Below, piece after piece: positions 6,765 to 35,556 of a DNA stretch of 64,000 nt. The stretch's first letter is position 1. The number at the start of each line of letters is the position of its first letter. A program made the translations under genes and the position numbers. Location: positions 1 through 64,000 of the IMG/VR virus record IMGVR_UViG_3300027759_006101, one strand, 5' to 3'. The notes beneath the pieces were generated by a model that was not told the origin of the DNA, ran no database searches, and saw nothing but the letters and a program-made list of their open reading frames with translations. Source of the stretch: a virus.

Positions 6765-7874
6765 ATGTCAGACGAAATACAAGCAATGTCATATACCCAG
6801 AGTGCATTAGTATATTATAATACTGCTACATCTACACCAGGAATTTTTATAGAATGGGAGCGTTCAGGTGCTAATGGAGTTGAATTTTACAAAATTCAAA
6901 AGTCTGATCAATTTGATGGAACTTACACCACAATAGAGACAGTTCCATTTCCAATCAATGAAGGATGGGATTCAAATGGCCATCCTAGTACTTATTATAG
7001 AATTCAAGAAGTAGATACAAATGGAACTGTACTAAATACAAGTTCTCCATTTTTGGGAGATGAGCTATTAATAAAATCTAGCATTAGATACGAGTTGGAA
7101 CATCTTTTAAATATTTCAATTTATGATGAAGAAGTTGTTTTTAGAAAAGATAGAAAAATTGCAACAGTAGCATTCCCATATTGGAATTATTCTCCAAGAC
7201 CCGATGTTAGAATCAGCGGACCATCAAATCAGGGTGATAGAGACCCAATGATTCAATTATCTGAAACTGCACCAATTTATACCACGATAAATGAAACATT
7301 TGACCCAATCATCAAAAATAGAGATGGGTACGAGTCAGGATTAACAAACGGACACAATTACCCAAATGGTTTAAGATACAAATGTGATTACAAAGGAAAT
7401 ATATATTTCATTGATGCAAATGGAAATTCTGTTTCAATACAATCATACGATAATGTGTTAGTTTCTTACAGTATCAAAATGTTCACAAATGATCATATAA
7501 ACAATGCTTTGTATATGTCTTTACAACAAATCAATGCTCAACCAGGTGCGTCAAAATACCAATCAGTAGCATCTACACCATTTTTCTATGAACCAGCAAT
7601 TGTTTATGGAGCAGTTTATTATCTCTTGAGAAGTCTCCTGATTAGTTTAACAAATAGACAAAGAAGATTATTGATTGAAGACCCTGATGCCCAATTTGTA
7701 GATCAATTAAGACAAACAGCAACTATGTACAAAGAAGATTTTGACAAGATGTTAGAAAAACTTCCAATTGCTACATATCCTGGTGTTAGGTCAGTTGTAG
7801 TTCCAGAATACAATATGCCAGGAGGAAGAAGTAGATTCTTCAGATACATTTGGAACATTGGAACTGGAGGATAG
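6765..7874 (+). CDS. Fn3-domain virion/neck-like protein, 369 aa
   Basis: Residues ~12-90 look like a fibronectin type III fold: alternating strands with IFIEWERSGANGVEFYKIQKS, then STYYRIQEVDTNG. The rest is a mixed alpha/beta region with a long amphipathic section near residues 245-320. Fn3 domains are common on phage head, neck and tail proteins, where they are thought to bind carbohydrate or cell surfaces weakly. GGAG precedes the ATG by 6 bases. It is flanked by a terminator upstream and an AT-rich hairpin downstream, so it may be a monocistronic unit. Assignment to the neck or connector is inferred from position ahead of the gp36-like connector. Confidence 0.7.
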   Translation: MSDEIQAMSYTQSALVYYNTATSTPGIFIEWERSGANGVEFYKIQKSDQFDGTYTTIETVPFPINEGWDSNGHPSTYYRIQEVDTNGTVLNTSSPFLGDELLIKSSIRYELEHLLNISIYDEEVVFRKDRKIATVAFPYWNYSPRPDVRISGPSNQGDRDPMIQLSETAPIYTTINETFDPIIKNRDGYESGLTNGHNYPNGLRYKCDYKGNIYFIDANGNSVSIQSYDNVLVSYSIKMFTNDHINNALYMSLQQINAQPGASKYQSVASTPFFYEPAIVYGAVYYLLRSLLISLTNRQRRLLIEDPDAQFVDQLRQTATMYKEDFDKMLEKLPIATYPGVRSVVVPEYNMPGGRSRFFRYIWNIGTGG

Positions 7875-8439: not shown

Positions 8440-8988
8440 ATGGACGATGATCAGATCAAAGTATTAAGACACTCTTTTACAAACCCGCACCGTGAAGATT
8501 TACCAAAACCAAAAGTAAATAAATTTGGGCATACAGTTCTTGGTGAAGAAATGAAAATGTCTGATCAAGAAATTGATTTCAAAATCGATGAATTTGGGGC
8601 TTTAAGTGCAGAGCCTAAGCAAAGCCTTTTCGACAGCCCAGAATTTCAAAAATGGGCAGAAAATCAGCCTAATGCGAAGACTATTGAGCCTGAAGAACAA
8701 GCAACAGAATCTCAAATTTCAGAAAAAAGTTCAATACTTCCAAATAGTGTCAATATTGCAGATCTAATTTCTGAACTTGATAAAATGGATGGCACTAATG
8801 AACGTAAGCAAACTGAAGAACAATGGTACAAGAATTGCTTAAACAAAGACTGTATGTACAATCTCCCAAAAGATGCTAAATTCTGTCTTGAATGCGGTAC
8901 TCATCAGTTGCCCAAGTTTTGCACTGAATGTGGATATAGTTTCCCAGGAACGGAAAAGTTCTGCCCTGATTGTGGAAAGAAAAGATAA
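8440..8988 (+). CDS. Double zinc-ribbon protein, 182 aa
   Basis: The N-terminal ~125 residues are acidic and disordered. The C-terminal ~55 residues hold a DZR-type double zinc ribbon: CLNKDC...CLECG, then CTECG...CPDCG, giving eight cysteines in four knuckles. Such ribbons mediate protein-protein or nucleic-acid contacts. An RHSFTNPHREDLPKPK patch near the N-terminus could be a docking peptide. The start is set by the ATG 6 bases after the TATAAT box; no ribosome-binding site is present, suggesting a leaderless message. The function in the phage is unknown. Confidence 0.75.
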   Translation: MDDDQIKVLRHSFTNPHREDLPKPKVNKFGHTVLGEEMKMSDQEIDFKIDEFGALSAEPKQSLFDSPEFQKWAENQPNAKTIEPEEQATESQISEKSSILPNSVNIADLISELDKMDGTNERKQTEEQWYKNCLNKDCMYNLPKDAKFCLECGTHQLPKFCTECGYSFPGTEKFCPDCGKKR

Positions 8989-9025: not shown

Positions 9026-9703
9026 ATGTCTCCTTGGTACAAAACAGCTAAAGAATGTCTTGCTATTCGTAAAAATGTATTACGAGTTGATCTTTGTGTA
9101 TTTATTGACAAAGAAGAACAATTTACGAATAAAGATTATTTAAACTCAACAATTAAGTCTATTCTTACATCAGCAATAATTAATGGGTTGGACATTATTG
9201 GAGTGATATCTGCTGACAACCCAACTGTTGGATTGCTAGCTCAACAGATGTGTATAGAGCAAAAAATGGACTTAGTAGTAGTGCCTGGGCAAACGTATAT
9301 CACTAGAGATAATGAGTCTTTGTATGTTTACAATTTGTCAACTCCTATGCCTAAAAATCTTACCTTAGATAAAGCTTGTGAATTTGCTCACAAGAAAGGT
9401 GGATTTGTAATGGTTGCAAATGTTTCTAAACAAATTGCACAAAAAATTAATCGTTTGCAAGGAAGTCTTTATGCGCCAGATGCAGTTGAAGTATTCAATG
9501 CACAAACTGGTGGATATAGGGACATAGATATTGATTTCCCAAGATTTGTTTCTTCTGGAGCAACTTCAGCAAGTGACTTAGAAGAAACAAATGTTTTTAC
9601 TTTGTTAGAAAGAAAAAAAGCAGTAGAAATGGGATTTATTCACAATGAGCAAGGTGTAGATTATACGCCTAAATATTTACTGCCAAAAACTGGAGAAATC
9701 TAA
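9026..9703 (+). CDS. PHP-fold protein lacking metal ligands (pseudoenzyme), 225 aa
   Basis: The order of motifs matches the PHP (polymerase and histidinol phosphatase) superfamily, but the metal-binding residues are replaced. The usual DLHxH is DLCVF (22-26). The usual TDH is SADN (62-65). The PGxE strand is PGQTYIT (87-93). The AHKKGG helix-turn is retained, but AHP becomes ANV (131-133). AVEVFNAQ (153-160) matches the PHP xxEVxN strand. The final SDAH becomes SGATSAS (177-183). It is therefore probably non-catalytic and structural or binding. MSPWYKTAKE at the N-terminus resembles other N-termini in this genome. The gene overlaps the next start by one base (TAATG). Family assignment is by motif order only. 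Confidence 0.65.
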   Translation: MSPWYKTAKECLAIRKNVLRVDLCVFIDKEEQFTNKDYLNSTIKSILTSAIINGLDIIGVISADNPTVGLLAQQMCIEQKMDLVVVPGQTYITRDNESLYVYNLSTPMPKNLTLDKACEFAHKKGGFVMVANVSKQIAQKINRLQGSLYAPDAVEVFNAQTGGYRDIDIDFPRFVSSGATSASDLEETNVFTLLERKKAVEMGFIHNEQGVDYTPKYLLPKTGEI

Positions 9704-10197
9704 TGCCAAGATCATATTGTTCAGTAAGTGATGTCAAACAGTATTTGCCGCCTAATGTTGTTACTGAAGGAGATAACCCAGTACCAAACTTTAGAAATCC
9801 TACGCCTGAATCTGCTTCGAATATCAATATTGATTTTTTTATTCAACAGGCTTCAGCAGACATTGACGCTAGTTTAGCAACAATTTATGATGTTCCTCTT
9901 AAACAAATAAATATGGGAGGAGATGTATCTTATCCTCACCCAATACCTGTTATTTGTGCAATATTATCTGCTCAAATGTATTATATGCAAGCATTACAAG
10001 GCTCAGATTCGCAATATTCGGAAGCTCAAAAAGTAAGATTTGATTTTGCACAAAATCAAATTGTAAGAATACAAAATGGAGAAATCAGGCTCTTTGGGCA
10101 GAGAAACCTTAGAGGTGATAGATTTGTCAGATCTACCTTAAGAGGAATATCAATAAATCCAACTGAAGGAAAAAGATCTAAGGGTCAAAATCAATAG
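9703..10197 (+). CDS. gp36/DUF1320-like head-tail connector, 164 aa
   Basis: The N-terminus SYCSVSDVKQYLP, followed by a helix FFIQQASADIDASLATIYDVPL and a P-x-P-V-I-C-A-I-L helix, matches the pattern of the Mu gp36 / DUF1320 and HK97 gp6-like connector adaptors. These form a dodecameric ring beneath the portal. Length (164) is typical for the family (130-170). The N-terminal half is the helical bundle and the C-terminal ~50 residues are basic. It overlaps the PHP-like gene by one base and precedes a 258-residue gene by 10 bases, a normal place for head-tail joining genes. Confidence 0.6.
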   Translation: MPRSYCSVSDVKQYLPPNVVTEGDNPVPNFRNPTPESASNINIDFFIQQASADIDASLATIYDVPLKQINMGGDVSYPHPIPVICAILSAQMYYMQALQGSDSQYSEAQKVRFDFAQNQIVRIQNGEIRLFGQRNLRGDRFVRSTLRGISINPTEGKRSKGQNQ

Positions 10198-10207: not shown

Positions 10208-10984
10208 ATGCTTGAAAGAGTCTATGATACTTTGCGTGGCATTTTATATCACGAACTTCCTAAAAATGCCAAAGATCAGATTGTAATTTTTGACAGACCA
10301 GTTACAGGGTTTTACATTGGTGAGCAAGCGGTAAAACCAAACGGTATATCTTTTACATTTAAGGGTTCAAGTTCCCCGCTTAAAGATATAGCTTTTGGCC
10401 TTCAAGAATTTGAGCATTCAGTTACAATAGACATTACAGTTGGTGCAGATAATATAGAAACTACCGAAAGAGTAACCCAAGAAGCTGTAAGAATTGTTTT
10501 ATCAGTTTTACGTAAACACAGAAGAATGTGGGTTGTAGATGTTTGCCCTATATGCAAAAAATTTACATTGAACCCTCAGCATTTTACAGTTGATCATAAT
10601 GACATTTTGTCCACCTACGTAACTTCAGTAACAAGTGAATTTAATAATTTATGGACAGACACTCATGACCCAGATTTAGCTCCTCCTGCCTTACCTTCAT
10701 CAGGACTTGCAGCTGAAGCATTTATCAGAATGTATAACGATGTAGGAGCTGGCACAAGCGTATCAAACTTGACAACCACTTCAAGAAATAACATCTTAAG
10801 GATGCGAGCTGATAACGTTGAACCTGTTAGATTATTATATGATGTAATTTGCAATGACATCAAAGGTTCAGATGATGCTACAAATAGACAGCTTTTTAGA
10901 AATGGAACAATTACTATAAGAGCTAAAGAATTAGTCAGACAATTGTATTTCGGACCGGATAACGTTCCAACTACTGCATACTAG
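10208..10984 (+). CDS. Hypothetical connector/tail-completion-like protein, 258 aa
   Basis: The protein has an alpha/beta N-terminal half with VFDRPVTGFYIGEQAVKPN and long beta strands (residues ~40-80). This recalls tail-terminator or completion proteins, but without a motif that proves it. A CPICKKF pair at ~117-123 could be half of a zinc site. The C-terminal half is helical. It sits between the gp36-like connector and the 1565-residue protein, 1 base before the latter. That position supports a joining role. Confidence 0.6.
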   Translation: MLERVYDTLRGILYHELPKNAKDQIVIFDRPVTGFYIGEQAVKPNGISFTFKGSSSPLKDIAFGLQEFEHSVTIDITVGADNIETTERVTQEAVRIVLSVLRKHRRMWVVDVCPICKKFTLNPQHFTVDHNDILSTYVTSVTSEFNNLWTDTHDPDLAPPALPSSGLAAEAFIRMYNDVGAGTSVSNLTTTSRNNILRMRADNVEPVRLLYDVICNDIKGSDDATNRQLFRNGTITIRAKELVRQLYFGPDNVPTTAY

Positions 10985-22179: not shown

Positions 22180-22763
22180 AAGAATTTATCGATTTTTATA
22201 ATACAGTAAAGTCTAATTACGTGCATATCTTAGAAGTTGATCCTGTAAAATTTATAATCAAAGAAATTACTTGGAAAGATGGCTTACTAATAGATGCCAA
22301 GTCTTTTAGAAAAAAAGATAATATAGTATACCAAAATACAGAGTTTGAAAAAAGAGAAATCTTGAATATAGCTATCTTGGGTGCTTTTGATACTCAGGAT
22401 AGTAAAATGTACTATCCTGAATTTAAAAGTTCATTAATCGATTTATTAGACCACACAATTGTTGAAAAACTTTGGGTCGAGTACCAAAAACATCTTTATC
22501 TTTCTGCAGATGAAGCAAACTTTTACTACATAGCAGCTAAAAAGTATTTCAATCCTAATGATCATGAAACATATCCAGTGCCACCAATAGTAGTTGAAAT
22601 TGACTATATGCTTAGAGGCTTGGTATCATTCAGCAAAGAAGAATTTTCAAATCTTAGTATGAAAGAATTTGAAACAATGCAACTTATTTTAGCTACTAAA
22701 AATGAATCTAAGCAAAAGTCTCTTGCTGATATTGATATTGATCTAGAGAAAGAACTTAAGTAA
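22176..22763 (+). CDS. Possible tail assembly chaperone, 195 aa
   Basis: This helical, acidic protein of 195 residues follows the tube-like genes, the usual place for tail assembly chaperones. The ATG at 22176 overlaps the upstream stop as ATGA and is preferred over a TTG at 22167. The C-terminus is a long charged helix. No programmed -1 frameshift product was found: downstream, the rightward strand is occupied by a convergent gene whose last 21 bases overlap this one. The assignment is by position and size only. Confidence 0.5.
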   Translation: MKEFIDFYNTVKSNYVHILEVDPVKFIIKEITWKDGLLIDAKSFRKKDNIVYQNTEFEKREILNIAILGAFDTQDSKMYYPEFKSSLIDLLDHTIVEKLWVEYQKHLYLSADEANFYYIAAKKYFNPNDHETYPVPPIVVEIDYMLRGLVSFSKEEFSNLSMKEFETMQLILATKNESKQKSLADIDIDLEKELK

Positions 22764-23549
22764 ATCAGAACTTTCTTCTTTACGAATTTTATCAGCCACA
22801 GGAGTTCTATCCCATTGGTGAAAAACGTAATACTCTTCATCATTAGTACTTAGTACTTTCTTGTCATTATATTTGACTTGAACATTGTTTCTCTTGATAG
22901 CTTCTCCAGTTGCGCAAAAATTATCAACGTTTGGATTTGTAATTAATACTTTTGGATTCATAGCATAATATTGAGACAAATACCCCATAACTTGTTGGTC
23001 CTGAACTAAATACTTAGCTACTCTGTTTGTATTAGAGAAAAGCATCAAACAATGATTTACAAAATGCTCAATTTTTCCAGCAAACATTCCACCACTTAGT
23101 ACTAAATTATCAAGATAAGATTCATTGTGTGATCTTAGCAATGGACGATATGAATTTTCCCACATACTATTGCAATCGTTTTCAAGAATTTTCATTCCTT
23201 CTGCAACAAGAAATAAATTGTATTGCGGTCTTGACATCATAAACTCAAATGGGTCTCTTTGAAAAATAACATCTCTCAAATCTGTATTCATAACATATTC
23301 AAATTGGTCTTGTTTGTCAGATAGCCAATCATAAAATGCCATATATCCAGTATATAAGTTTTCTTCAGTTTCAATAATATAATCAAAGTATTTTTTCAAT
23401 TTCTCAATATTGTAAGGGCTAACTGATTTTACAAAAATTGCTTTTTTGAATGACTTAAACTTTGAAATAGACTCTAAAAATAAATCACCATCTCTTGAGT
23501 CTAAGCATTTGTCTCCAAAAGAATAGTTTATAAGTAAATTTTTTTTCAT
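22743..23549 (-). CDS. Glycosyltransferase-like protein with D-x-R-D-V motif, 268 aa
   Basis: The start at 23549 overlaps the upstream stop as ATGA; a longer frame to 23582 is less likely. A motif MNTDLRDVIFQRDPFEF at ~residues 88-104 matches the acidic D-x-R-D-V-x-F-Q-x-D-P-F signature of a nucleotide-diphospho-sugar transferase group with a GT-A-like fold. The DxD-like acids would bind metal and the sugar nucleotide. A later LDNLVLSGGMFAGK segment fits the acceptor region of the same group. It is the last gene of the leftward sugar operon and overlaps the end of the convergent tail gene by 21 bases. It probably transfers the sugar produced by the upstream enzymes; donor and acceptor are unknown. 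Confidence 0.6.
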   Translation of the reverse strand: MKKNLLINYSFGDKCLDSRDGDLFLESISKFKSFKKAIFVKSVSPYNIEKLKKYFDYIIETEENLYTGYMAFYDWLSDKQDQFEYVMNTDLRDVIFQRDPFEFMMSRPQYNLFLVAEGMKILENDCNSMWENSYRPLLRSHNESYLDNLVLSGGMFAGKIEHFVNHCLMLFSNTNRVAKYLVQDQQVMGYLSQYYAMNPKVLITNPNVDNFCATGEAIKRNNVQVKYNDKKVLSTNDEEYYVFHQWDRTPVADKIRKEESSDLLKFFL

Positions 23550-24379
23550 AAGTTTGTCTCCAATTTGATTTTTTTGTAACACTCTTCTATACCAGAAATG
23601 AGTCCTTTGAGGGATATATTCATTTTGTGCAAATCATACTTGCCTATATATGAATTCTTAAGCTCAGTGTTATCAAGGTCTATTTCAACTTTATGTTTGT
23701 CTAAATTGTTGATAATCTGTGCAATATCATATAGGGTGTACTTTTGTTGATAACTGCAATTACAATCTTTTTGAGGATTTTCTGATTCTATGTAATGTTT
23801 GATAATTTGCATAAAATCATCAAAAAACATAAAGTCCATATATCTATTGTCAAAAACACTAATATTTTCATTATTGATATATCTTAAGATGTTGCCTTTA
23901 ATCATCCGTGTCTTGAGTTCATTGTAATTGAAGATATTGAATATTCTAATGTTGTAAAACTTATCACAAAAATATCCTGATTTTGCAATTAAGTTTTTGC
24001 TAATTCCATATGGATCAAGTGGAAGTGAAGATAAATAATTTGAACTTTCATTCATTTGAAAAGCTCTGTCTAATTCAGCTCCAGAACCAAAAGATATATA
24101 TTTACCATAATGTTTTTCATTTCTTAGAATATTGAAATGCATAGAAAGATTAGTGTGGACATATTCTGGTAAATCTTCTGATAATCTGCTGCCACCTTTT
24201 ATCGCAGTGTGAAATACTACGTCAAAATATTTATCTTTGAAAAAATTATCAACTTGTTCAGCATTTGTAACTTCTAAATTTTGTCTTGTAGTTAAGGTCA
24301 AGTTGTAATCGTTCTTTAAGTTTTCTGCAATGTTTGAAGCAATATATCCATTAGCCCCTGTAATCAAAATAGATTTCAT
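23546..24379 (-). CDS. NAD(P)-dependent sugar epimerase/dehydrogenase (extended SDR), 277 aa
   Basis: The N-terminal Rossmann motif SILITGANGYIASNIA contains GxNGYIA, a variant of GxxGxxG. The catalytic YGISK is present at ~135. The SFGSGAEL segment provides the Ser of the SDR triad. The 277-residue length is slightly short for NAD-dependent epimerases (~310). The start at 24379 is chosen because it overlaps the upstream TAA by one base and begins directly at the Rossmann strand. It belongs to the seven-gene leftward sugar operon. The likely reaction is oxidation, reduction or epimerisation of a nucleotide sugar. Confidence 0.75.
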   Translation of the reverse strand: MKSILITGANGYIASNIAENLKNDYNLTLTTRQNLEVTNAEQVDNFFKDKYFDVVFHTAIKGGSRLSEDLPEYVHTNLSMHFNILRNEKHYGKYISFGSGAELDRAFQMNESSNYLSSLPLDPYGISKNLIAKSGYFCDKFYNIRIFNIFNYNELKTRMIKGNILRYINNENISVFDNRYMDFMFFDDFMQIIKHYIESENPQKDCNCSYQQKYTLYDIAQIINNLDKHKVEIDLDNTELKNSYIGKYDLHKMNISLKGLISGIEECYKKIKLETNL

Positions 24380-26106
24380 TACCAGTTTTCCGACCAAGAA
24401 ATATTTTCAAGCAAGCCTGGAATAAAGTTTCCATTTTCATCTAAACGAGCAATTACTTTAGGTTCATGAACTTCGTCAGGATGAGTCATAACTTCACAAA
24501 TAGCAGGACCGTCTATTTGAAAAAATTGTTGTAACTTTTCATCTATTTCATCATTGTTATAAACTCTAATGAACGGAAGATTGTATACATCTGCAACTTT
24601 TTCATAATCAGGGAATGTAACTCCACTGTTCCTATCAGCTGCAACTAATCTACCATTGAAGAAAATATTTTGTGTAATCTTCATAGAGAGATATCCGTCG
24701 TTGTTAATAAGTAATATCTTTAATGGCAAATTATTGTGTCTAACTGTCTGAAGCTCGTGGACATTCAAGTGAAGACTTCCATCACCTTCCATACAAAGAA
24801 TATTATGGTGTGTCGCAGCTCCCACAGCACATGGCAATCCATATCCAAGCGGAGCACCACCAGTATTTGTTATTAATCTTTGCCCATCTTTAAGCTTACA
24901 TACTTGCATAGTTACAACATTTGCAGAACCATCACTGGTTACAATATGATAATCGGATGGAATGTGATTGTTGAGTTTTTCAACTAATGCATACACAGAA
25001 GCTACGTCTTTCATATTCCTGTGTCTGTCTAAAACTACAGGTGCCTTGAAAGTATCGCAATGCTTTAGCCATGAATTAGATGCTGGTGTGATATTTTTTG
25101 AATTTAATTCTTTTAAAAATTCTTTTGCATCAGCAAGAACTTTAATATTTGGGAAAATAGTTGGCTTGTCAAGTTCCGCTGCGTCAATATCTACAACAAT
25201 TCTTTTTGCATTTTTAGCAAAGTTTTTAAAATTGTATCCAATTTGTCTTACATACAATCTACTGCCAATAGAAAGCATCAAGTCACATTCATTTAGTAAC
25301 TTATTTGCACACATTTGAGCATGTGTCCCAAATCTTCCATAGTATGATTGGTAAGATTCATTTACTAAATCATTGCCATTTACAGCTGTAATTACTGGTA
25401 TTTGAGTTTTTTCTAAGAGAGCGAATAGTTCGTCTACTCCTCCACTCAACCTAATTCCATTACCTAATACAAACAATGGTTTTTGAGCAGAATTAATAGC
25501 TTCTACAACCCTGTCAATCAATTCTGAATCAATCTTCAATGGTTCGGGTATATCAAAACCCTCAAGCTCTTCAGGTTCAATTTGCACAGTTTGTACATCC
25601 AAAGGAATATCTACCCAAACTGGCCCTGGTCTCCCAGATGTAGCTAAATAACACGCCTTTTCAAGTTCATACCTAATTCTTAAAGGATCGTTGACTTGGA
25701 CAGCATATTTTGTCATCGTTTTGACAGTTTCAATAATATTGAATTCTTGGTCACCTAATTGCCTTAAGGGTAAACCTGTAAAATTAGTACTCATAGGTCT
25801 ATTGACTTGCCCACTAAGATTCAACACAGGAATAGAATCTAGCCAGCTGCATAAAGTACCTGTCAGGGCATTTGTGCCTCCAGGGCCAGATGTCAATAAA
25901 CAAACTCCAAGTTTGTTGTTCATTCTTGCGTAGCCTTCAGCAGCTAATGCAGAAGCTTGCTCGTGATGGTTTGCAATAAAATTTACACCTTCTGCATTTC
26001 CCAAAGAATCAAGCAAGTGCATACAACCCGCACCACATAATGTAAAAATTGTGTCTACATTATAAGTGTCTCTTAAAAACTTAATTACATAATCAGATAA
26101 CTTCAT
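24379..26106 (-). CDS. Acetolactate-synthase-like TPP enzyme, 575 aa
   Basis: Full-length three-domain TPP enzyme of the IlvB family. The catalytic glutamate lies in NHHEQASALAAEGYAR (E49). The cofactor-binding motif GDGSLHLN...INNDGYLS lies at ~445-475, and the central Rossmann-like domain is present. Length (575) equals that of acetolactate synthases. In polysaccharide clusters, homologues are thought to add or remove two-carbon units; YerE in yersiniose synthesis is the characterised example of the reaction type. Position between a dehydroquinate-synthase-like cyclase and an epimerase supports sugar rather than amino-acid metabolism, and no regulatory subunit gene is present. It overlaps the cyclase gene by 14 bases. 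Confidence 0.8.
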   Translation of the reverse strand: MKLSDYVIKFLRDTYNVDTIFTLCGAGCMHLLDSLGNAEGVNFIANHHEQASALAAEGYARMNNKLGVCLLTSGPGGTNALTGTLCSWLDSIPVLNLSGQVNRPMSTNFTGLPLRQLGDQEFNIIETVKTMTKYAVQVNDPLRIRYELEKACYLATSGRPGPVWVDIPLDVQTVQIEPEELEGFDIPEPLKIDSELIDRVVEAINSAQKPLFVLGNGIRLSGGVDELFALLEKTQIPVITAVNGNDLVNESYQSYYGRFGTHAQMCANKLLNECDLMLSIGSRLYVRQIGYNFKNFAKNAKRIVVDIDAAELDKPTIFPNIKVLADAKEFLKELNSKNITPASNSWLKHCDTFKAPVVLDRHRNMKDVASVYALVEKLNNHIPSDYHIVTSDGSANVVTMQVCKLKDGQRLITNTGGAPLGYGLPCAVGAATHHNILCMEGDGSLHLNVHELQTVRHNNLPLKILLINNDGYLSMKITQNIFFNGRLVAADRNSGVTFPDYEKVADVYNLPFIRVYNNDEIDEKLQQFFQIDGPAICEVMTHPDEVHEPKVIARLDENGNFIPGLLENISWSENW

Positions 26107-27127
26107 AAACGTTTTCCAGTGCCTCTTTAATTATAGAATAATCTTCAATTTTTTGAATTAATGGTTGGTTATCTTTAATTAGCACCATGTTAACACAGCC
26201 AGTATTTTTCTTATCTGACATGACACATTCCATAAGGCTTTCATAATCAAACCATTCTTGATTAAAAGATACTGTATTTTCTAGAAGTTTTTTGACAATA
26301 TTTAATGTTGCAGAATAATCTTTGTAATTGTAGTTATAAAATAGTTCACTTACCCTCAAGGCTACAAGACATCCAATTGCCACTGCATATCCATGCGATA
26401 ACTTGTACTTTGAGGTAATTTCTAAAGCATGACCAAATGTATGACCAAAGTTCAGAAATTTACGTTCTTTTTTATCAAACTCATCAATCTCTAAAACAGA
26501 AATTTTATAATTAAGACTTTCATAAATGTGATGCAGAACATTTTTATTTTCAGAAATCAAATCAATGACTTTTGATTCTTGAATTTTATTTCTTAAGATA
26601 TCAAACTTCATTAATTCGCCTAAACCACTACAAAAGTTTTCTTTACTTAAGCCATCAAGCCATTCTTCACAAATAAGAATTTCACACGGAGGATAAAATG
26701 TACCAAGAATATTTTTTCTTGACCCATAATTGATAGAAGTTTTACCACCAATACAACTATCAATTTGAGAAAGCAATGTTGTTGGAACTAAATAATATTC
26801 AATGCCTCTACAATAAACAGAAGCACAAAAGCCCACTGCATCTTGTAAAACTCCACCACCAATAACTACAAGCTTAGTTTGCGTATTGACTTTTTTTTCA
26901 GCAAATTTATCAAATATTTTTTCTAGACCACGCCATGATTTTAAGTCTTCATTTGTGTCTGTAACTATGAGATCACCTAATCCAAATTCAGGAAAACAGT
27001 GAGCAACATTTTTGTCAACTACTGCAAGATGATAATCTTCTCCAATGAGTTTATATATTTCGCTCAAGCTTACAAAATTTACAGAATAATCTTTGATTTT
27101 TGATTTGACATTTATTTGGCTGTACAT
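26093..27127 (-). CDS. 3-dehydroquinate-synthase-like sugar phosphate cyclase, 344 aa
   Basis: The sequence shows the family signature GGGVLQDAVGF (90-100), YCRGIEYYLVPTTLLSQIDS (105-124), GGKTSI (127-132), then E171 in GELMKF, the GHTFGHALE metal and substrate motif (228-236) and H245. The metal ligands are conserved. In AroB the last motif reads HGEAV, but here it reads HGYAV (245-249), a change beside the active site that suggests a non-shikimate substrate, as in sedoheptulose-7-phosphate or aminoquinate cyclases. The length is typical (340-360). It lies between an SDR and a TPP enzyme, overlapping the SDR by 16 bases. It probably makes a carbocyclic intermediate, or acts as a related lyase. 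Confidence 0.75.
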   Translation of the reverse strand: MYSQINVKSKIKDYSVNFVSLSEIYKLIGEDYHLAVVDKNVAHCFPEFGLGDLIVTDTNEDLKSWRGLEKIFDKFAEKKVNTQTKLVVIGGGVLQDAVGFCASVYCRGIEYYLVPTTLLSQIDSCIGGKTSINYGSRKNILGTFYPPCEILICEEWLDGLSKENFCSGLGELMKFDILRNKIQESKVIDLISENKNVLHHIYESLNYKISVLEIDEFDKKERKFLNFGHTFGHALEITSKYKLSHGYAVAIGCLVALRVSELFYNYNYKDYSATLNIVKKLLENTVSFNQEWFDYESLMECVMSDKKNTGCVNMVLIKDNQPLIQKIEDYSIIKEALENVYEVI

Positions 27128-27750
27128 GAATAACCACCATCTATAACTATATTTTGTCCTGATATATATGAATTTTGCACTGTCAAAAAATATACTAAAT
27201 CTGCAACTTCTTTTGTATATCCCAATCTACCAAGTGGAATTTTACTTCTTAAATTCTTCAAATCTTCTTCTGTATTATTTTGAAAAGTCATATCAGTGAT
27301 GAAAAATCCAGGAGACACAGTATTTGCCAAAATATTATAAGTACCATATTCAGCAGTTATAGCTTTTGTAAGAGAGTGTAAGGCATTTTTACTAGCACTA
27401 TATGAGGATCTTCCAGGTTTTGCATAATCTACCCATACGCTTCCAATATTTACAACCCTGCCATAATTTTGTTTTTTCATATAAGGTAAGCAAAGTTTGA
27501 ATAATCTCAAAGGTGAGAAATAATTTACTGTCATCATTTCTTCATATTTCTCACCTTCAAATATAGAGTCTATTATGTTAATTCCAGCATTATTTATCAA
27601 GATATCAATTTTGTCTGGAATAAAAGAAAAGGCTTGAGATAAATCAAGTTCTTCACGAGTTGGAGCAATAACTTCGTGACCATTTTTTTTGAAAATTTCA
27701 GAAATATCACTGCCTATGCCTCTTGACCCACCAGTGATAAGTATTTTCAT
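27112..27750 (-). CDS. Short-chain dehydrogenase/reductase, 212 aa
   Basis: This is a classical SDR, slightly short (212 residues). It has TGGSRGIG (6-13) for the dinucleotide, NNAGIN near 53-58, SVWVDY and YSASK (~120) for the Ser-Tyr-Lys catalytic triad, and a C-terminal SGQNIVIDGGYS. It probably reduces a keto group of a sugar or cyclitol. It overlaps both neighbours (4 bases with the lyase-like gene upstream, 16 bases with the cyclase downstream), so it is part of one coupled operon. Confidence 0.8.
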   Translation of the reverse strand: MKILITGGSRGIGSDISEIFKKNGHEVIAPTREELDLSQAFSFIPDKIDILINNAGINIIDSIFEGEKYEEMMTVNYFSPLRLFKLCLPYMKKQNYGRVVNIGSVWVDYAKPGRSSYSASKNALHSLTKAITAEYGTYNILANTVSPGFFITDMTFQNNTEEDLKNLRSKIPLGRLGYTKEVADLVYFLTVQNSYISGQNIVIDGGYSCTAK

Positions 27751-28547
27751 AGTTCTGAAGCAGCTTGATTGATCCTAAATTGTATCATTTTAATTCTATT
27801 TTCATCTTGCAGTGAAAGTTTCTGATACAACTCCATTTTGTTAGTAAGCCATTCATATTCAAACATTTGAGCTTTAAAAAGAGCTCTTGATAAATTTTTC
27901 AACGCAACAGATGGATCAAAAATTGCATATCTTGTTTCAAATTTGTCTAAAAGTTTTTGTGAATGTAGTTTTTTCAAAAAATCTAAAGACTCAATAGATA
28001 CAGCTCCGCCAATACAAGCCTTGGCACCTAATTTCTTTGTTCTTTCAAAAACGTCATGAGCAATTTGGTAAACTTCTTCAGAATTTACAAAAGTTCTATC
28101 CTTTTTCATAGAAGATACTAAGTCAACTCTTCCCAATGTAACACCATATAATGATTCTGCAGCTTTTTGAGAAAGAATTTTATCAATGTTTGCAACAGCT
28201 GTTTGTGTTTCTATATTTACGTTCAATTGCAATGAATTTACTACTTCTGATGGCAGATTATTATGAATGGCATTTATGAATTTAGTTAGCCCAAATTCAG
28301 ACTCAACCATTGGAGCCACTAAACCCTTAACTCCAATTACCATTGAATCTTTAATATCTCTAATTGCTTCTGGACCACCAATTTTTAATGTGACTTTTGT
28401 ATTAGATTGATTGCAAATTTCTTTCAACCTTAAGACTTCGTTAAAAGTTGCACCCTCATCTTCAAAACTTGTTTTAATCCCAACTAGCCCATAGTTTTCA
28501 ACTAAATCTGTAAGGATATTTACGCACTTGAATTCTCTGTTGTTCAT
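27747..28547 (-). CDS. HpcH/HpaI-like aldolase/lyase, 266 aa
   Basis: The protein matches the phosphoenolpyruvate/pyruvate-binding TIM-barrel pattern of the HpcH/HpaI aldolase and citrate lyase beta family. Recognisable parts are VTLKIGGPEAIRDIKD, the loop GVKGLVAPMVES, the strand LNVNIETQTAV with an acidic metal ligand, and LGRVDLVSS. Such enzymes cleave or form C-C bonds using pyruvate or acetyl-CoA-like donors. The length (266) is typical. It is second in the leftward operon, starting 9 bases after the RmlB-like gene. Together with the TPP enzyme it suggests carbon-skeleton extension of a sugar. The exact substrate is unknown. Confidence 0.65.
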   Translation of the reverse strand: MNNREFKCVNILTDLVENYGLVGIKTSFEDEGATFNEVLRLKEICNQSNTKVTLKIGGPEAIRDIKDSMVIGVKGLVAPMVESEFGLTKFINAIHNNLPSEVVNSLQLNVNIETQTAVANIDKILSQKAAESLYGVTLGRVDLVSSMKKDRTFVNSEEVYQIAHDVFERTKKLGAKACIGGAVSIESLDFLKKLHSQKLLDKFETRYAIFDPSVALKNLSRALFKAQMFEYEWLTNKMELYQKLSLQDENRIKMIQFRINQAASEL

Positions 28548-28556
28548 AGTTTTATT

Positions 28557-29507
28557 TTACCAAATGAATTTATTTTTGTAATAATTGACTATGTTTAAAA
28601 TCTCATTGTCAAAATTTACTTGTGGAGACCAACCTAAATTTTTAAGTTTAGAATCATCAATTGCATATCTGACATCTTGCCCTGGTCTCATAACGTCATA
28701 AGAGATATAATCATCATAGTTTACAGAAGATTCAAAGTATGCATCTATAATTTTTTTAATTGTATCAATATTCGATTGTTCAAAACCTCCGGCTACATTG
28801 TAAATCTCATTAGACTTACCTTTCTCTATAATTGCAATTATTGCTGATGCAGTATCACTTGCATGTAACCAATTACGTATAGGAGTTCCGTGATTGTGTA
28901 ATGGGATTTTTCTTTTCAAAGTTAAAAACTTACAAGCTTTAGGGATAAGTTTTTCAACATATTGACCAATACCGTAATTGTTAGTTGGTCTGACAATATT
29001 GTAATTTAGATCGAAAGTTCTAGCCCAAGCCACAATTAACATATCTGCAGAAGCTTTAGTTGCAGAGTAAGGATTGCTTGGTTTCAATAAGTCAGTTTCT
29101 TTATGACTCCCATCAACCACATCTCCGTATACTTCGTCAGTGCTGAAGTGAATAAATCTTGGTATTACATATCCTTCTGTTTTGTAATTTTTAAGAAGCT
29201 CTAAAATATTGTGAACACCTGTAATGTTTGAGTGTAAAAAAACATCACTTTTACGTATTGAGTTATCTACGTGAGTTTCTGCAGCAGTATTTATAAAAAC
29301 ATCACAATCAACTAATCTTTTTATATCGCAAATATCAGTTTTCTCAAATTTGAATTTTGGATTACAGAAAAAATCATCCAAAACACTTACATCAGAAGCA
29401 TAAGTACAGCTATCGATGCCATAAACATACCAGCCTTTGTCTAAACAAGCCTTAGTAATATATCTGCCTATAAAACCTAAGCATCCAGTTATATAAACGA
29501 TTTTCAT
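28557..29507 (-). CDS. dTDP-glucose-4,6-dehydratase-like enzyme (extended SDR), 316 aa
   Basis: The Rossmann motif GCLGFIG (8-14) is followed by HFSTDEVYGDV and YSATKASADML (~150), which is the RmlB-type signature: T-D-E of the active site plus YxxxK. VRPTNNYG and a C-terminal GGFEQSNIDT are also RmlB-like. Length is 316 versus ~350 in canonical RmlB. It is the first gene of the leftward sugar operon. Its start is 7 bases downstream of a TATAAT box with no Shine-Dalgarno, so its message is probably leaderless. It would make a 4-keto-6-deoxy nucleotide sugar. No RmlA nucleotidyltransferase is seen in the window. Confidence 0.8.
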   Translation of the reverse strand: MKIVYITGCLGFIGRYITKACLDKGWYVYGIDSCTYASDVSVLDDFFCNPKFKFEKTDICDIKRLVDCDVFINTAAETHVDNSIRKSDVFLHSNITGVHNILELLKNYKTEGYVIPRFIHFSTDEVYGDVVDGSHKETDLLKPSNPYSATKASADMLIVAWARTFDLNYNIVRPTNNYGIGQYVEKLIPKACKFLTLKRKIPLHNHGTPIRNWLHASDTASAIIAIIEKGKSNEIYNVAGGFEQSNIDTIKKIIDAYFESSVNYDDYISYDVMRPGQDVRYAIDDSKLKNLGWSPQVNFDNEILNIVNYYKNKFIW

Positions 29508-29514
29508 TTAAAAT

Positions 29515-29520
29515 ATTATA
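29515..29520 (-). promoter_or_regulatory. TATAAT box, leftward, 7 bases before ATG
   Basis: ACGTATAAT on the minus strand is followed by ATTTTAA and the ATG at 29507. It heads the leftward sugar operon. It lies 12 bases from the opposing box at 29533-29538. Confidence 0.65.
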
Positions 29521-29532
29521 CGTTATAAGCGG

Positions 29533-29538
29533 TATAAT
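29533..29538 (+). promoter_or_regulatory. TATAAT box, rightward, 6 bases before ATG
   Basis: GCGGTATAAT is followed by AAGTTT and the ATG at 29545. It heads the rightward sugar operon. The 37-base region between the two start codons contains both boxes, leaving no room for independent -35 elements. Confidence 0.65.
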
Positions 29539-29544
29539 AAGTTT

Positions 29545-29946
29545 ATGAATCGCAAATATCTCCCAACTCTTTCCGAATTGATTGATAGGCTTTCGATTGT
29601 TCAACTAAAAGAAGTTTTTATTTCAGAACATAAAGCCGAATATGCTAAAGAAATATCAGATATTCTCCATGATATTCAAGAACATATTGATGAAAATAAT
29701 GCAGAAATTACAGCTGAAGTAATCCGAGCAGTAGTTGTCTTGTCACAGATGAATTTGCATATTTGGCACAATGAAACAAATTACCGCAAGGGAATCAAGG
29801 ATGGAAATAATCTTGAATTGACTCACGGCTTGAATGGAATTAGAAACACGGCAAAAAATAAAATTCAAGAAGTAGTTGGTGGACGAAAAGACTACAAAAT
29901 TGACTGTTTAGCTGCTGATTTTAAGGACTGGGAGATAAGCTGGTGA
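29545..29946 (+). CDS. Small helical protein of sugar cluster, 133 aa
   Basis: An all-helical protein beginning MNRKYLPTLSELIDRLSIVQLKEVFI. The LSELIDRLSIVQLKE helix and the IWHNETNYR segment recall small helical proteins found beside glycosyltransferase genes in bacterial polysaccharide loci, but I cannot name the family. It is the first gene of the rightward operon and its end overlaps the GTG start of the CgeB-like transferase. It has no Shine-Dalgarno and lies 6 bases after a TATAAT box. It may be a regulatory or scaffolding partner. Confidence 0.6.
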   Translation: MNRKYLPTLSELIDRLSIVQLKEVFISEHKAEYAKEISDILHDIQEHIDENNAEITAEVIRAVVVLSQMNLHIWHNETNYRKGIKDGNNLELTHGLNGIRNTAKNKIQEVVGGRKDYKIDCLAADFKDWEISW

Positions 29947-30956
29947 ACAGACGTAAGGCTTTGTTGATTTACAGTAGATGGCAATACGGTGGACCTCCTG
30001 TGCTGTCTAATTTTGTAAATAATCTGACTGGCTCATATGAATATTTTTCTGCTGATAAGCCTGAATATGAAATTGAAAATGTTTATATTGGTCCTGAACC
30101 TGGTGAAATAAGCACAACAAAAGAATTGTCAGAAATTTTACTTACAAAAGATTATGACATAGCTGTTGTAAGCGAACTTGAAGATTGTGTCATTGATATA
30201 GATGTTGCAAAAAAAATTGGAAAAAAGTTATTTCTTTTAAATTGGGATTGCAATGTGAATATTTCTTCTCATTTAGAAACAAACTTTAGACTATTTTTGA
30301 AAAAACCTATAAATATTTCTTTTTTGAGAACTAAACATTCTTTGTGGGAATTGTCGCAATATTGCAATGTGCTCAATATGGATTATGGATATGGAGAAAT
30401 GTATCCAAATATTTATTGTTTTTCTACCCCGCAAGATGAAAGAATTTTCAAGAAAACTCCTGAGTCTGAAAAAGAATATGATGTTTTATTTTGCGGCTCA
30501 CTTCATATGCAAGAAAGAAATTCAATATTAAGTAAACTAATAAATTCTGGAGTAAACGTAAAGATTTCTGGAGGAAGATGGCCAGCAGAAAATACGATAC
30601 AGAATTTTGAAGATTATGCAAAAGAATTTGGCAAAGCTAAAATTTCTTTAAATTTTGCAGCTAGCCCTTATTGTAGATATTCACGTAAGGGAAGAGTTTT
30701 AGAGTCCCTATCTACAGGATCGTTATGTATTTCAACATATCCAGACATTTTTAAGTCAAGGCTTGGAACTTGGTTTGAGGTAGATAAACATTTTGCTGAA
30801 TTCAATTTAGATAATTGTGTTGATGTTGTAAATTACTATATCAATAATCAGACAGAAAGAAGAAGAATTGCTGATTCAGGTTATGAGCATTGGAAGAAAA
30901 CTTGTTCAGCTGATGTGTTTTGGCCAAAGCTTTTTGAAATTGCAGGTGTATTATGA
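29943..30956 (+). CDS. CgeB-like (GT-B) glycosyltransferase, 337 aa
   Basis: The start is GTG, preceded by GGGAGATAA, and overlaps the upstream stop. The N-terminal half resembles the DUF3880/CgeB N-terminal domain, with FLLNWDCNVNISSH. The C-terminal half has YDVLFCGSLHMQERNS, then KISLNFA and a RKGRVLESLSTGSLCIS segment. That is the CgeB-type glycosyl transferase 1_2 pattern, where Arg and Glu of R-x-x-E contact the nucleotide. It is paralogous to the gene at 31894 (shared KKLF...W, SxYCNV, YDxxxxGS/GN, AKISL). It probably transfers a sugar in glycan assembly. Confidence 0.7.
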   Translation: MNRRKALLIYSRWQYGGPPVLSNFVNNLTGSYEYFSADKPEYEIENVYIGPEPGEISTTKELSEILLTKDYDIAVVSELEDCVIDIDVAKKIGKKLFLLNWDCNVNISSHLETNFRLFLKKPINISFLRTKHSLWELSQYCNVLNMDYGYGEMYPNIYCFSTPQDERIFKKTPESEKEYDVLFCGSLHMQERNSILSKLINSGVNVKISGGRWPAENTIQNFEDYAKEFGKAKISLNFAASPYCRYSRKGRVLESLSTGSLCISTYPDIFKSRLGTWFEVDKHFAEFNLDNCVDVVNYYINNQTERRRIADSGYEHWKKTCSADVFWPKLFEIAGVL

Positions 30957-31894
30957 TGGAAAAAGTTCTTATAACGGGTGGTGCTGGTTACCTTGGATCT
31001 GTGTTGACTGAAGTGCTACTTTTGAAAGGCTACGCAGTAACAGTTTTAGACAGCCTGGTTTACAAACAACTATCATTAACTTCTTTTTGCTACAATAAGA
31101 ATTTTAATTTAGTCGTTGGAGATGTACGAGATACAAAACTTCTTACAAGTCTGGTAGAAACTCATGACATCATCATTCCATTAGCTGCAATTGTAGGGAT
31201 GCCTGCTTGTAAAAAAGATCCAGAACTTACTGTAGCTGTAAATTATCAACAAATTAAAAACATTATTGAGATAATTCAGCCAAGTCAGAAATTGTTAGTT
31301 CCTAATACAAACTCTCAATATGGAAGTTCTGAAACAATTATCACAGAAGAAAGTCCTTTTAATCCACTGTCTCTATATGCTCAAACAAAATGTGATGCAG
31401 AAAAGCGTGTTTTAGAATCTGGTAATGGTATTTCTTTAAGACTTGCTACAGTCTTCGGTGTTTCATATAGACAAAGAATGGATTTACTTGTAAATGATTT
31501 TGTTTACCGAGCATTTACAGATGAATTTTTAGTTTTATTTGAATCACATTTCTTACGAAATTATGTTCACGTAAGAGACGTTGCTAAAGCATTTGTTCAT
31601 CTTATTGAGAACTACCATTCGCTAAATTTCAATGCCTATAATGTTGGTCTTACTTCAGCAAATATGTCAAAGCTTCAATTGGCTCAAAAAATCAAAGAAT
31701 ATGTTCCAAATTTAGTCATCATTGAAGAGCAATTCAAGGAAGATTTTGATAAGAGAAATTATGTCGTATCAAATGAAAAACTTGAAAAGACTGGATGGCA
31801 TTGTGACTTCTCTTTAGATTCAGGTATTGAAGAATTACTTTCTGCTTACAAGATGATTTCTAACTACAAGAATAAGGATTTCACAAATCTTTAA
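30953..31894 (+). CDS. NAD-dependent sugar epimerase/dehydratase, 313 aa
   Basis: Extended SDR with GGAGYLGS (8-15), the D-V-R-D loop, PNTNSQYGSS with the catalytic Ser/Thr, and YAQTK (~143) as the catalytic Tyr-Lys pair. The C-terminal YVHVRDVAKAF and GW motifs bind the nucleotide sugar. The start overlaps the upstream stop as ATGATGG (MM); either ATG is possible. It overlaps the next gene by one base. The active site is complete, unlike that of the two SDRs further downstream. Confidence 0.8.
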   Translation: MMEKVLITGGAGYLGSVLTEVLLLKGYAVTVLDSLVYKQLSLTSFCYNKNFNLVVGDVRDTKLLTSLVETHDIIIPLAAIVGMPACKKDPELTVAVNYQQIKNIIEIIQPSQKLLVPNTNSQYGSSETIITEESPFNPLSLYAQTKCDAEKRVLESGNGISLRLATVFGVSYRQRMDLLVNDFVYRAFTDEFLVLFESHFLRNYVHVRDVAKAFVHLIENYHSLNFNAYNVGLTSANMSKLQLAQKIKEYVPNLVIIEEQFKEDFDKRNYVVSNEKLEKTGWHCDFSLDSGIEELLSAYKMISNYKNKDFTNL

Positions 31895-32886
31895 TGAAAG
31901 TTTTATTTGTTTACAATCCCTGGAACACACGAAGGCCTAATGAGTCATCTTATGATATGAAGCTTAAAGGGAGTTTTGAAGCAGCTTTTGGTGAGACAAA
32001 CGAGCATACATATGAAGTTTTGCATTATGGTTTCGAAAATGATGTCATAAGAGATAATAAAACTCTCAATGAAGAAATATTGAAAAGAGATTTTGATGCA
32101 GTTTTTGTAAGTGAAGAGATGCAATTTCACATTACAAAAGAGACAGCAAAAAAACTTGGTAAAAAGCTTTTCAATATGCTTTGGGATACTTGGATTTCTA
32201 TATCTTCTAGTCCAGAAATAAACTTACGAATTGCTCTTAAACAACCTAAAATTTGGGGAGAACATTATAACCCTTGCTCTATGAAAGAATTATCTGAATA
32301 TTGCAATGTAATTGTATCTGATACTGCATATGGGAAAATAGACACTAACATTTATGCAATGTCATCCCCATATGATACTAGAATTTATTACCCAAATTTT
32401 GATGAAGAAAAAAGTATAGATATTTCTCACAATGGTAATATGTATATTCCAGAAAGAATTGAATTTGCAAAAATATTTCACAATGCTGGAGTTGATATTG
32501 ACTATGGCTCTAAAGCTAAGGGATATCTAACTAACTCTGACTATGCAAAAATTCATCGTTCTGCTAAAATATCATTGTGCTATACAAATTCAATATTTGG
32601 CCCAAATCATAAACAAAGAAAAGGAAGAATTGACGAAATCGCAGCTTGTGGCGGTTTTATGTTAATGACTAATCCTGAAGTAATGAAATGGAGAAATAAT
32701 TATTGGTTTAAGGATGGCGTACATTATGTTTCAATGGATCAGAGTAATTGTGTTGATAAAGTAAAATATTATCTTTCTAATGCTGATGAAAGATCAAGAA
32801 TTAGTAAGAATTTTTATGATGAGTGGAATACAAAATATTCACCAAGACCATATTGGGAAAAACTTTTTTCATTTATAAAGGATTAA
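31894..32886 (+). CDS. CgeB-like glycosyltransferase paralogue, 330 aa
   Basis: This is the second CgeB/DUF3880-type transferase in the operon. It has KKLFNMLWDTWISIS, SEYCNVIVSDTAYG, SIDISHNGNMYIPERIEFA, then AKISLCYTN and RKGRIDEIAACGGFMLM, the R-x-x-E equivalent with a different flank. Similarity to the gene at 29943 is clear by eye but moderate, so the duplication is old or the two were acquired separately. It overlaps the previous gene by one base and the next start follows after 6 bases. It likely adds a different sugar or uses a different acceptor. Confidence 0.7.
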   Translation: MKVLFVYNPWNTRRPNESSYDMKLKGSFEAAFGETNEHTYEVLHYGFENDVIRDNKTLNEEILKRDFDAVFVSEEMQFHITKETAKKLGKKLFNMLWDTWISISSSPEINLRIALKQPKIWGEHYNPCSMKELSEYCNVIVSDTAYGKIDTNIYAMSSPYDTRIYYPNFDEEKSIDISHNGNMYIPERIEFAKIFHNAGVDIDYGSKAKGYLTNSDYAKIHRSAKISLCYTNSIFGPNHKQRKGRIDEIAACGGFMLMTNPEVMKWRNNYWFKDGVHYVSMDQSNCVDKVKYYLSNADERSRISKNFYDEWNTKYSPRPYWEKLFSFIKD

Positions 32887-32892
32887 TTTTTA

Positions 32893-33864
32893 ATGTTTGA
32901 AGGCAAAAACGTTCTTATCACAGGTGGAGCTGGAATGATTGGAAGAGCTCTAACTGAAAAGTTGATAAATCTAAAAGCAAATATTACAATAGCTGATCTA
33001 CATTTTCCACTTGATTTAGAAAATAAAGTAAATTTTGTAAATAAGGACTTGAGATACTTACATAATTGTGAAGAAATTTGTCAAGGACAAGATTTTATTT
33101 TTAACTGCATTGGCGTAAAAGGTTCTCCTCAAGTATGTGCTTCACAGCCAGCAGATTTTATGGTACCAATGCTTCAATTCAACACAAATATGATGGAAGC
33201 TGCAAGAAGAGCTAATGTTCAGTGGTATTTATATACAAGCTCAGTAGGCGTTTATTCTCCTGCTGAAATCTTTTATGAAGATGATGTATGGTCAACTTTT
33301 CCATCTCCTAATGACAGATTTGCTGGGTGGGCAAAAAGAATGGGAGAATTGCAAGCTGAAGCATATTCAATCCAATATGGTTGGAATAAAGTTTCAATTG
33401 TCAGACCTGCAAATGTCTATGGAAAATTCGATAATTTCAATCCTGTAAATTCTATGGTGATTCCTTCACTTATTAGAAAAGTTCAAGAAAATGAAACTTT
33501 AGAAGTTTGGGGTGACGGTTCTCCAATTAGAGATTTTATTTTTGCTGATGATGTTGCTGAAGGTATGATTACCTGTGTTGAAAATAAAATCACAGAACCA
33601 ATTAATTTAGGTTCTGGTTCTGGTTATTCAATAAAGCAAATTGTTGACTTAGTGATAAAAGCTTCTAATAAAAACCCAAACGTAGAATGGCTTACTGACA
33701 AACCTTCTGGTGACAAAATTAGAATACTTAGTTCAACAAGAGCTAATTCACACGGTGTATTTCCAAAGACTAATTTGGAAAATGGTATCAAGATAGTTAC
33801 AGATTGGTTTGTTGAAAATAAGCAAGACATAGACAAAAAATATAATGTTTTTGTGAACCATTGA
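32893..33864 (+). CDS. Epimerase-like extended SDR with altered Tyr, 323 aa
   Basis: The Rossmann motif is GGAGMIGR (10-17). TSSVGVYSPAE supplies the Ser region. The YxxxK motif is changed: it reads AGWAK within RFAGWAKRMGELQAEAY (~137), so Ala replaces the catalytic Tyr and Phe sits one residue earlier. The DGSPIRDFIFADDVAEGM and LGSGSGYSI motifs are normal. The surrounding WAKRMGEL pattern is typical of GDP-fucose-synthase-like SDRs. Either catalysis uses another residue or the protein acts as a partner of the next SDR. It is co-transcribed, starting 6 bases after the previous gene. Confidence 0.75.
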   Translation: MFEGKNVLITGGAGMIGRALTEKLINLKANITIADLHFPLDLENKVNFVNKDLRYLHNCEEICQGQDFIFNCIGVKGSPQVCASQPADFMVPMLQFNTNMMEAARRANVQWYLYTSSVGVYSPAEIFYEDDVWSTFPSPNDRFAGWAKRMGELQAEAYSIQYGWNKVSIVRPANVYGKFDNFNPVNSMVIPSLIRKVQENETLEVWGDGSPIRDFIFADDVAEGMITCVENKITEPINLGSGSGYSIKQIVDLVIKASNKNPNVEWLTDKPSGDKIRILSSTRANSHGVFPKTNLENGIKIVTDWFVENKQDIDKKYNVFVNH

Positions 33865-33872
33865 GGATTTGT

Positions 33873-34826
33873 ATGAATTACTTTGAAAATAAAAAAATAG
33901 TTGTTACTGGAGGCAGTGGTTTTCTGGGAAGCAATTATATTGAGGGTTTACTCAAAAAAGGTGCAAGCGTCAAAACAAATACGCATAAGCGTTCTTTGCA
34001 AGTAAATGCTGAAAATCTCACGGTGCTTGAAAACTGTGATTTGACCCAATTAGATCATTGTATTGAATTAGTTGATGGGGCAGATTATGTAATTCATAGC
34101 GCAGGTAACATTGCACATCCTAGTACTGTAGCAACAGACATCCAAATATCTATTCAAAACATCAATGTTCTTGGAAATGTTTTAGATGCATGTAACAAAT
34201 GTTCAGTTAAAAAATTCTTAGACCTCAATAGTTCAACTGGATATCCTGATAGAAGATTACCAATTACAGAAGAAGAATTTTGGGAAGATGAGCCTTACGT
34301 TTCTTATTTTGGGTATGGATGGATGAGACGTTATAGAGAAAAGCTAATGGAGCATGTATCAAGATTCTCCAAAACCGAAATCTTAGTAACAAGAGGTACT
34401 GCGATTTTTGGCCCTTATGACAATTTTAACATTAAGACTTGCCATGTAGTACCAGCTCTGATTAATAGAGTCTTATCTGATGAAAATCCATTTATTGCTT
34501 GGGGTAGTCCAGATGTAGTAAGAGATTTTTTGTTTGTAGAGGATGTTGTAAACGCTTCTTTGCTTGTTCTTGAAAAAGGCGTACCTATGAGACCCTATAA
34601 TGTTGGGGCTGGCAAAGCAATTACTATCGGAGAAATTCTGGATGTCATATTGAAAACCACCAAAAAGTCACCAGAAATTATATGGGATAATTCTAAGCCT
34701 ACTACAATTCCTTTTAGAATGGTTAGCACAGAAAGAATTACAAATGAGTTGGGATTTTATCCAGAATACACATTTGAACAAGGCATTGAAAAAACTGTGG
34801 AATGGTACAAAAAAGTTTATAAATGA
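33873..34826 (+). CDS. Epimerase-like extended SDR with YxxxR, 317 aa
   Basis: The start at 33873 follows GAGGA with good spacing; an in-frame TTG at 33861 is less likely. The Rossmann motif is GGSGFLGS (12-19). The catalytic region reads YGWMRRYREKLMEH (~147), giving Tyr with Arg in place of the usual Lys. The rest (RGTAIFGPYDNF, VVRDFLFVEDVV, YNVGAGKAI) is normal for GDP-fucose synthase or NAD-epimerase-like enzymes. It directly follows another SDR with a changed catalytic Tyr, so the two may form a heteromer. It overlaps the next gene by 4 bases. Confidence 0.75.
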   Translation: MNYFENKKIVVTGGSGFLGSNYIEGLLKKGASVKTNTHKRSLQVNAENLTVLENCDLTQLDHCIELVDGADYVIHSAGNIAHPSTVATDIQISIQNINVLGNVLDACNKCSVKKFLDLNSSTGYPDRRLPITEEEFWEDEPYVSYFGYGWMRRYREKLMEHVSRFSKTEILVTRGTAIFGPYDNFNIKTCHVVPALINRVLSDENPFIAWGSPDVVRDFLFVEDVVNASLLVLEKGVPMRPYNVGAGKAITIGEILDVILKTTKKSPEIIWDNSKPTTIPFRMVSTERITNELGFYPEYTFEQGIEKTVEWYKKVYK

Positions 34827-35521: not shown

Positions 35522-35543
35522 TTACAAAAAACAATTTCCACGG

Positions 35544-35549: not shown

Positions 35550-35556
35550 TGTATTG

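Follow-up and report, generated by a model that had tools for sequence, protein, structure and literature searches.

The PHP fold is a distorted beta/alpha barrel, and the metal site of PHP proteins is formed by nine ligands with the consensus H, H, D/H, H, E, H, C/H, D/N, H (PMC3666897). Stand-alone PHP phosphoesterases include RNase AM (Rnm/YciV/TrpH; PDB 7ug9, 9etk) and TM0559 (2anu). A degenerate form of the domain is carried within E. coli DNA polymerase III alpha, where five of the nine ligands are replaced and the non-enzymatic scaffold remains as a stabilizing element that also positions a partner (PMC3666897). Among dead polymerase PHP domains, Arg is the commonest replacement at six of the nine positions, standing in for the charge of the metals (PMC3666897). 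The connector of phage Mu consists of portal gp29, adaptor gp36, and terminator gp37 (PMC11915804). The stopper ring usual in other phages is absent from Mu. Literature searches for phage neck or virion proteins with a PHP fold, or for phage pseudoenzymes of such a kind, returned no relevant paper. To our knowledge, and in the papers found, PHP pseudoenzymes have previously been described only as domains within replicative polymerases. Pseudoenzymes with this fold are already known, then, and a free-standing one encoded in a phage neck cassette is, as far as we could find, undescribed.

A PHP-like gene in the neck cassette of very large phages

The DNA analysed here (the window) comprises 64,000 nucleotides and is part of a virus record of 358,269 bases. 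An open reading frame at 9026-9703 (+), with an ATG at 9026 and a stop codon ending at 9703, encodes a predicted PHP-fold pseudoenzyme of 225 amino acids (AF2 model, Foldseek, hhalign), and the gene is single copy in the record. It belongs to a plus-strand run consisting of a zinc-ribbon protein, the PHP-like gene, a gp36-family adaptor, a probable tail terminator, and large tail proteins, with the genes for terminase, the Mu-type portal, and the major capsid protein further along the same window. The upstream neighbor (8440-8988, +) matches zinc-ribbon family PF12773 (E 1.7e-9), and a zinc-ribbon gene also precedes the PHP-like gene in the relatives inspected. The downstream neighbor is a head-tail adaptor of the Mu gp36 family (9703-10197, +; PF07030, E 4.2e-4), so that an earlier note made from the sequence was right in placing the gene in the head-tail joining region. 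Across the adaptor family, matches reach E 1.6e-7 for PF07030, which is above cut-off in L057 and L094, and E 4.5e-8 for phrog_195.

The window phage resembles Mu in having a portal of the Mu type, an adaptor of the gp36 family, and a terminator-like gene. The Mu connector as described contains no PHP-fold protein, whereas in the family of the window phage a PHP-like gene lies directly 5' of the adaptor gene and overlaps it in every locus inspected, at 34-81% identity; in all of these loci it is encoded within the neck gene cassette. The stop codon of the PHP-like gene and the start codon of the adaptor gene share 1 nt in the window (TAATG) and in L014, L054, L056, and L117, with an overlap of up to 20 nt in L021. 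Co-location and overlap across so divergent a set indicate that the PHP-like protein and the adaptor are probably translated in coupling.

The probable tail terminator (10208-10984, +; 258 aa) is assigned through its homolog in L054, which matches the tail terminator family phrog_176 (E 3.3e-5); the window's own copy gave no significant match. It contains a CPxC zinc-ribbon-like segment (CPIC type) that is conserved in relatives and is unusual for a terminator. The portal protein (48118-50499, −) matches PF06074 (E 4.9e-7) and phrog_16240 (E 1.4e-28). Its C-terminus carries a nuclease-like domain at residues ~706-777, with a match to DUF559 over the cut-off (E 4.3e-6) and one to REase_MTES_1575 just below its cut-off (E 6.3e-9). 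In four related large phages the matches run as far as query residue 788 or 787; those to the portal and to the C-terminus lie in separate pieces in G005, and the match in G006 has two internal stops. Several relatives possess an extra run of genes upstream of the neck cassette, after the homolog of the ORF at 6765-7874 (L023, 2374-6909; L051, 29-4167; L056, 410-6805). This run, which is absent from the window, includes proteins of ~390-490 aa that start like YLRSGKTLxxLxQxYxI.

Compared over its full length, the major capsid protein (40446-41300, −) shares 47.7% identity with its counterpart in Bacillus phage G (497 kb), which identifies the virus as a very large phage and a distant capsid relative of phage G; identity to the capsid protein of uncultured phage LR745208 (485 kb) is 34%. 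Between the tail and capsid genes lies a sugar/cyclitol-type biosynthesis cluster (22743-40395), comprising a TPP enzyme (24379-26106), a 3-dehydroquinate synthase-like cyclase (26093-27127), an HpcH/HpaI aldolase-like protein (27747-28547), E1/transketolase halves in two ORFs (35554-36162 and 36162-36698), a DegT aminotransferase (36688-37863), a PfkB kinase (37866-38636), and a PhyH dioxygenase (38923-39795).

Stepwise scans of IMG/VR, with the protein as query, then with its alignment, and then by way of the conserved adaptor neighbor, revealed homologs of the PHP-like protein with a conserved open frame in 24 other contigs of up to 479 kb. Twenty distinct family proteins were compared, with the lowest pairwise identities at ~34%. 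The gene is single copy in the four related records where copies were sought (315,852, 378,848, 441,498, and 478,840 bases) and is found in one more record of 300,536 bases. When four different family members served as tblastn queries, none of 50,697 named phage records yielded a homolog; the phages that carry this gene come from metagenomes only. Profile searches of Bacillus phage G, Tunturi_5, and LR745208 found none either, a weak negative with no positive control among the three records. Sequence searches of Pfam, NCBIfam, PHROGs, and the PDB with single members and profiles produced nothing useful for the family, and PF02811 matched none of 18 members at E values up to 10, leaving the Pfam gathering cut-off unreached. 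A weak match to the PhoH-like phrog_32482 (best E 0.0014) was set aside, as two fold searches and the profile comparison indicate a PHP protein.

The PHP fold and its lost metal site

The identity of the fold was examined by structure prediction, the check that the earlier note had proposed, with a fold other than PHP counting against it. A first AF2 model, from 15 similar phage sequences, was mediocre (pLDDT 62) and in Foldseek matched RNase AM at E 4.9e-6. A second, built on a more diverse set of 18 phage sequences, attained a pLDDT of 84.8 and a pTM of 0.82. Its best 18 Foldseek matches in the PDB were all PHP proteins, with the PHP domain of RNase AM in first place (E 2.3e-7, probability 1.00), TM0559 at E 1.1e-6, and ordinary TIM barrels next at lower probability; in the Foldseek viral library the first matches were PHP-containing proteins and DnaE polymerases. 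Both models thus match PHP proteins best, and because neither input alignment contained a cellular PHP sequence, the Foldseek match is an independent test of the fold.

Profile and sequence comparisons lead to the same assignment. By hhalign the phage family aligned with four intact PHPs at 97.9-98.4% probability, with unrelated neck proteins as controls at 0.05 and 0.6%. This match spans residues 39-161 only, so that the register of motifs I and V relies on the multiple alignment and predicted strand positions. A tblastn scan of genome contigs with the phage alignment identified three cellular proteins (L042-L044) at 25-28% identity, with a best E of 7e-11 relative to the candidate stretches. 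These best sequence relatives are short, stand-alone proteins above the Pfam cut-offs for PHP and PHP_C, and their PDAVEVFN strand is near-identical to that of the phage protein. They retain intact ligand motifs (DLHxH, TDH/ADH, GxE, HP, and SDAH), whereas the phage family has neither these motifs nor a Pfam PHP match. The agreement of Foldseek, profile-profile comparison, and tblastn confirms the product of the ORF as a predicted PHP-fold protein. Its source was probably a stand-alone cellular-type PHP phosphoesterase of the RNase AM (PHP plus PHP_C) class, rather than the DnaE of the phage. An origin from the phage's own DnaE PHP domain was not supported, since profile comparison with the intact DnaE PHP domains of these phages was negative (0.6%, from a narrow alignment), which makes the stand-alone origin more likely.

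The phage protein shares its predicted fold, strand order, and motif order with RNase AM and TM0559, and keeps the DAVEV-type strand. It differs from them in the replacement of all eight alignable ligands, in a loop that takes the place of one barrel helix, in its N- and C-terminal additions, and in its location in a phage neck cassette. In cellular PHPs a helix links the last two barrel strands, as may also be judged from their longer sequence there. DSSP of the second model assigned no helix to the corresponding residues 159-172 (9500-9541), which form a conserved, family-specific loop of the type GGYRDIDIDFP. TM-scores against stand-alone PHP structures are moderate (0.44-0.52), as the C-terminal part of the phage protein differs by this loop. 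The N-terminal extension (residues 1-20; 9026-9085) is not found in the short cellular PHPs compared, and its residues W4, R15, K16, and R20 are invariant in an 18-member alignment.

Eight of the nine ligand positions are replaced in the window protein, at C24, F26, A63, T90, S98, N132, T180, and A182. Motif I (PHP DLHxH, ligands 1 and 2) survives as DLCVF at residues 22-26 (9089-9103), within a strand predicted at 18-26 in the second model, with C24 and F26 in place of the ligands. The loop after motif I, which carries the third ligand (D/H), is longer here by about six residues, so that this ligand is not alignable. Motif II is represented by SAD at residues 62-64 (9209-9217), where ITDH of cellular proteins aligns with V-I-S62-A63 and A63 replaces ligand 4. 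Motif III, PGxE in PHP proteins, reads PGQTY at residues 87-91 (9284-9298), with T90 at ligand 5. S98 (9317-9319) occupies the position of ligand 6, the extra His ahead of the xxGL strand. Motif IV (HP, in the form AHP) is ANV at residues 131-133 (9416-9424), with N132 replacing ligand 7. It is followed by the retained scaffold motif DAVEVFN at residues 152-158 (9479-9499), and motif V (GSDAH) has become GATSA at residues 178-182 (9557-9571), with T180 and A182 at ligands 8 and 9. The earlier note had traced five motifs in order with every ligand changed. The order and the changes are upheld, with the qualification that replacement is established for eight of the nine ligands, the third being unalignable, and that the S98 site had been omitted.

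Ligand loss extends across the family. Ligands 1, 2, 4, and 9 are His, and ligand 7 is His or Cys, in 0 of 20 members; position 1 is instead C, R, A, or G and position 2 is F, Y, or W, so that the HxH, TDH, HP, and final H ligands are retained in no relative. Relics of other ligands persist in certain members, with Glu at ligand 5 in L056 and L094 and Asp there in L054 and L125, His at ligand 6 in L054, L056, and L057, and Asp at ligand 8 in L054. In L094, Arg occupies ligand positions 1, 6, and 8, and in L125 Arg occupies positions 1, 4, and 8 and Lys position 6. These deep-branch relics and Arg/Lys replacements support the alignment register as well as the view that metal binding was lost long ago, a loss that on the family alignment is placed before the phage lineage diversified. 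The claim that the scaffold was kept as the ligands were lost is likewise sustained, with scaffold residues conserved in order and ligand loss fixed in 20 of 20 members, and the prediction that the protein is catalytically dead, a pseudoenzyme, is supported. Decay of a single copy is ruled out by the absence of the ligands from all members together with purifying selection.

Selection and the probable role of the protein

By the Nei-Gojobori method, median pairwise dN/dS is 0.17 for the PHP-like gene, against 0.05 for the adaptor genes of those genomes, both rough values because synonymous sites are near saturation in many pairs. The PHP-like protein is clearly maintained by selection and is less constrained than the adaptor. 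We favor, with a little better than even confidence, a non-catalytic assembly or neck protein that acts with the adaptor ring. An intact scaffold without metals, the family-specific additions, and coupling to the adaptor gene are together best explained by a protein-binding part of head-tail joining. Most of the barrel would have been kept as a metal-free scaffold that now serves as a docking or assembly part of the neck, supplemented by a basic segment at the N-terminus, a conserved tail at the C-terminus, and the loop that stands where cellular PHPs have a barrel helix, and the protein may bind the adaptor/portal ring as a neck component of the virion. The closest functional analog would be the PHP domain of E. 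coli DNA polymerase III alpha, likewise degenerate (PMC3666897), which has in common with the phage family a scaffold that outlives its ligands and Arg at ligand sites, although it is a domain inside a polymerase and the phage protein is free-standing. The suggestion of the earlier note that the fold was reused as a structural or ligand-binding part is plausible in view of where the gene lies, its overlap with that of the adaptor, and the purifying selection on it.

Whether such a protein belongs to the finished particle is a narrower matter. That the metal-stripped PHP fold serves in the virion as a specialized part of the neck, together with the gp36-type adaptor ring, in phages of ~300-480 kb, and is thereby the first PHP-fold viral structural protein, is put forward tentatively, at well short of even chances. 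A chaperone, regulator, or moron-type gene would show a similar position beside the adaptor, and the dN/dS of 0.17 against 0.05 suggests weaker constraint than expected of a core ring. An assembly chaperone or regulator of head-tail joining, non-catalytic and absent from the finished particle, would be consistent with a gene that overlaps the adaptor gene and is strictly co-located with it, with faster evolution than the adaptor, and with a Mu connector that requires only portal, adaptor, and terminator; a literature search gave no precedent for a PHP-fold chaperone, however, and this reading is considered rather unlikely, at about one chance in four.

The remaining alternatives concern the protein itself. 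The old active-site pocket might be kept for binding a phosphate group, a DNA end, or a nucleotide without cutting, as it is polar (N132, T180, and S177), with N132 present in 18 of 20 members and S177 invariant in the 18-member alignment, and as L094 and L125 have Arg at 24 and 180 and Arg/Lys at 98. Pocket residues nevertheless vary by clade (C/R/A/G at 24; T/D/A/Q/R at 180), which speaks against a single conserved ligand, and Arg in place of a metal is also known as a purely structural substitution (PMC3666897), so that retention of a binding pocket is judged improbable. Persistence of enzymatic activity, through a different metal set or Cys24-based chemistry, would draw on C24, constant in all 13 members of the window's clade, and on the conservation of D28 in close relatives. 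It appears very unlikely, for C24 gives way to R, A, or G in other members and no second set of conserved His, Asp, Glu, or Cys residues replaces the lost ligands across the family. A chance motif match in a protein of another fold could be argued from the empty Pfam, NCBIfam, and PDB sequence searches and from the lack of a profile match to the DnaE PHP of the phage itself; the concordance of Foldseek, of hhalign with its controls, and of tblastn to intact PHPs makes it exceedingly improbable.

The favored reading, a non-catalytic protein acting with the adaptor ring, would if true place a free-standing PHP pseudoenzyme as a fixed component of a virus assembly cassette, showing that phages recruit enzyme scaffolds for their necks, and would provide a handle on head-tail joining in very large phages. 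Since standard libraries miss the family, other such genes may hide among unannotated neck genes.
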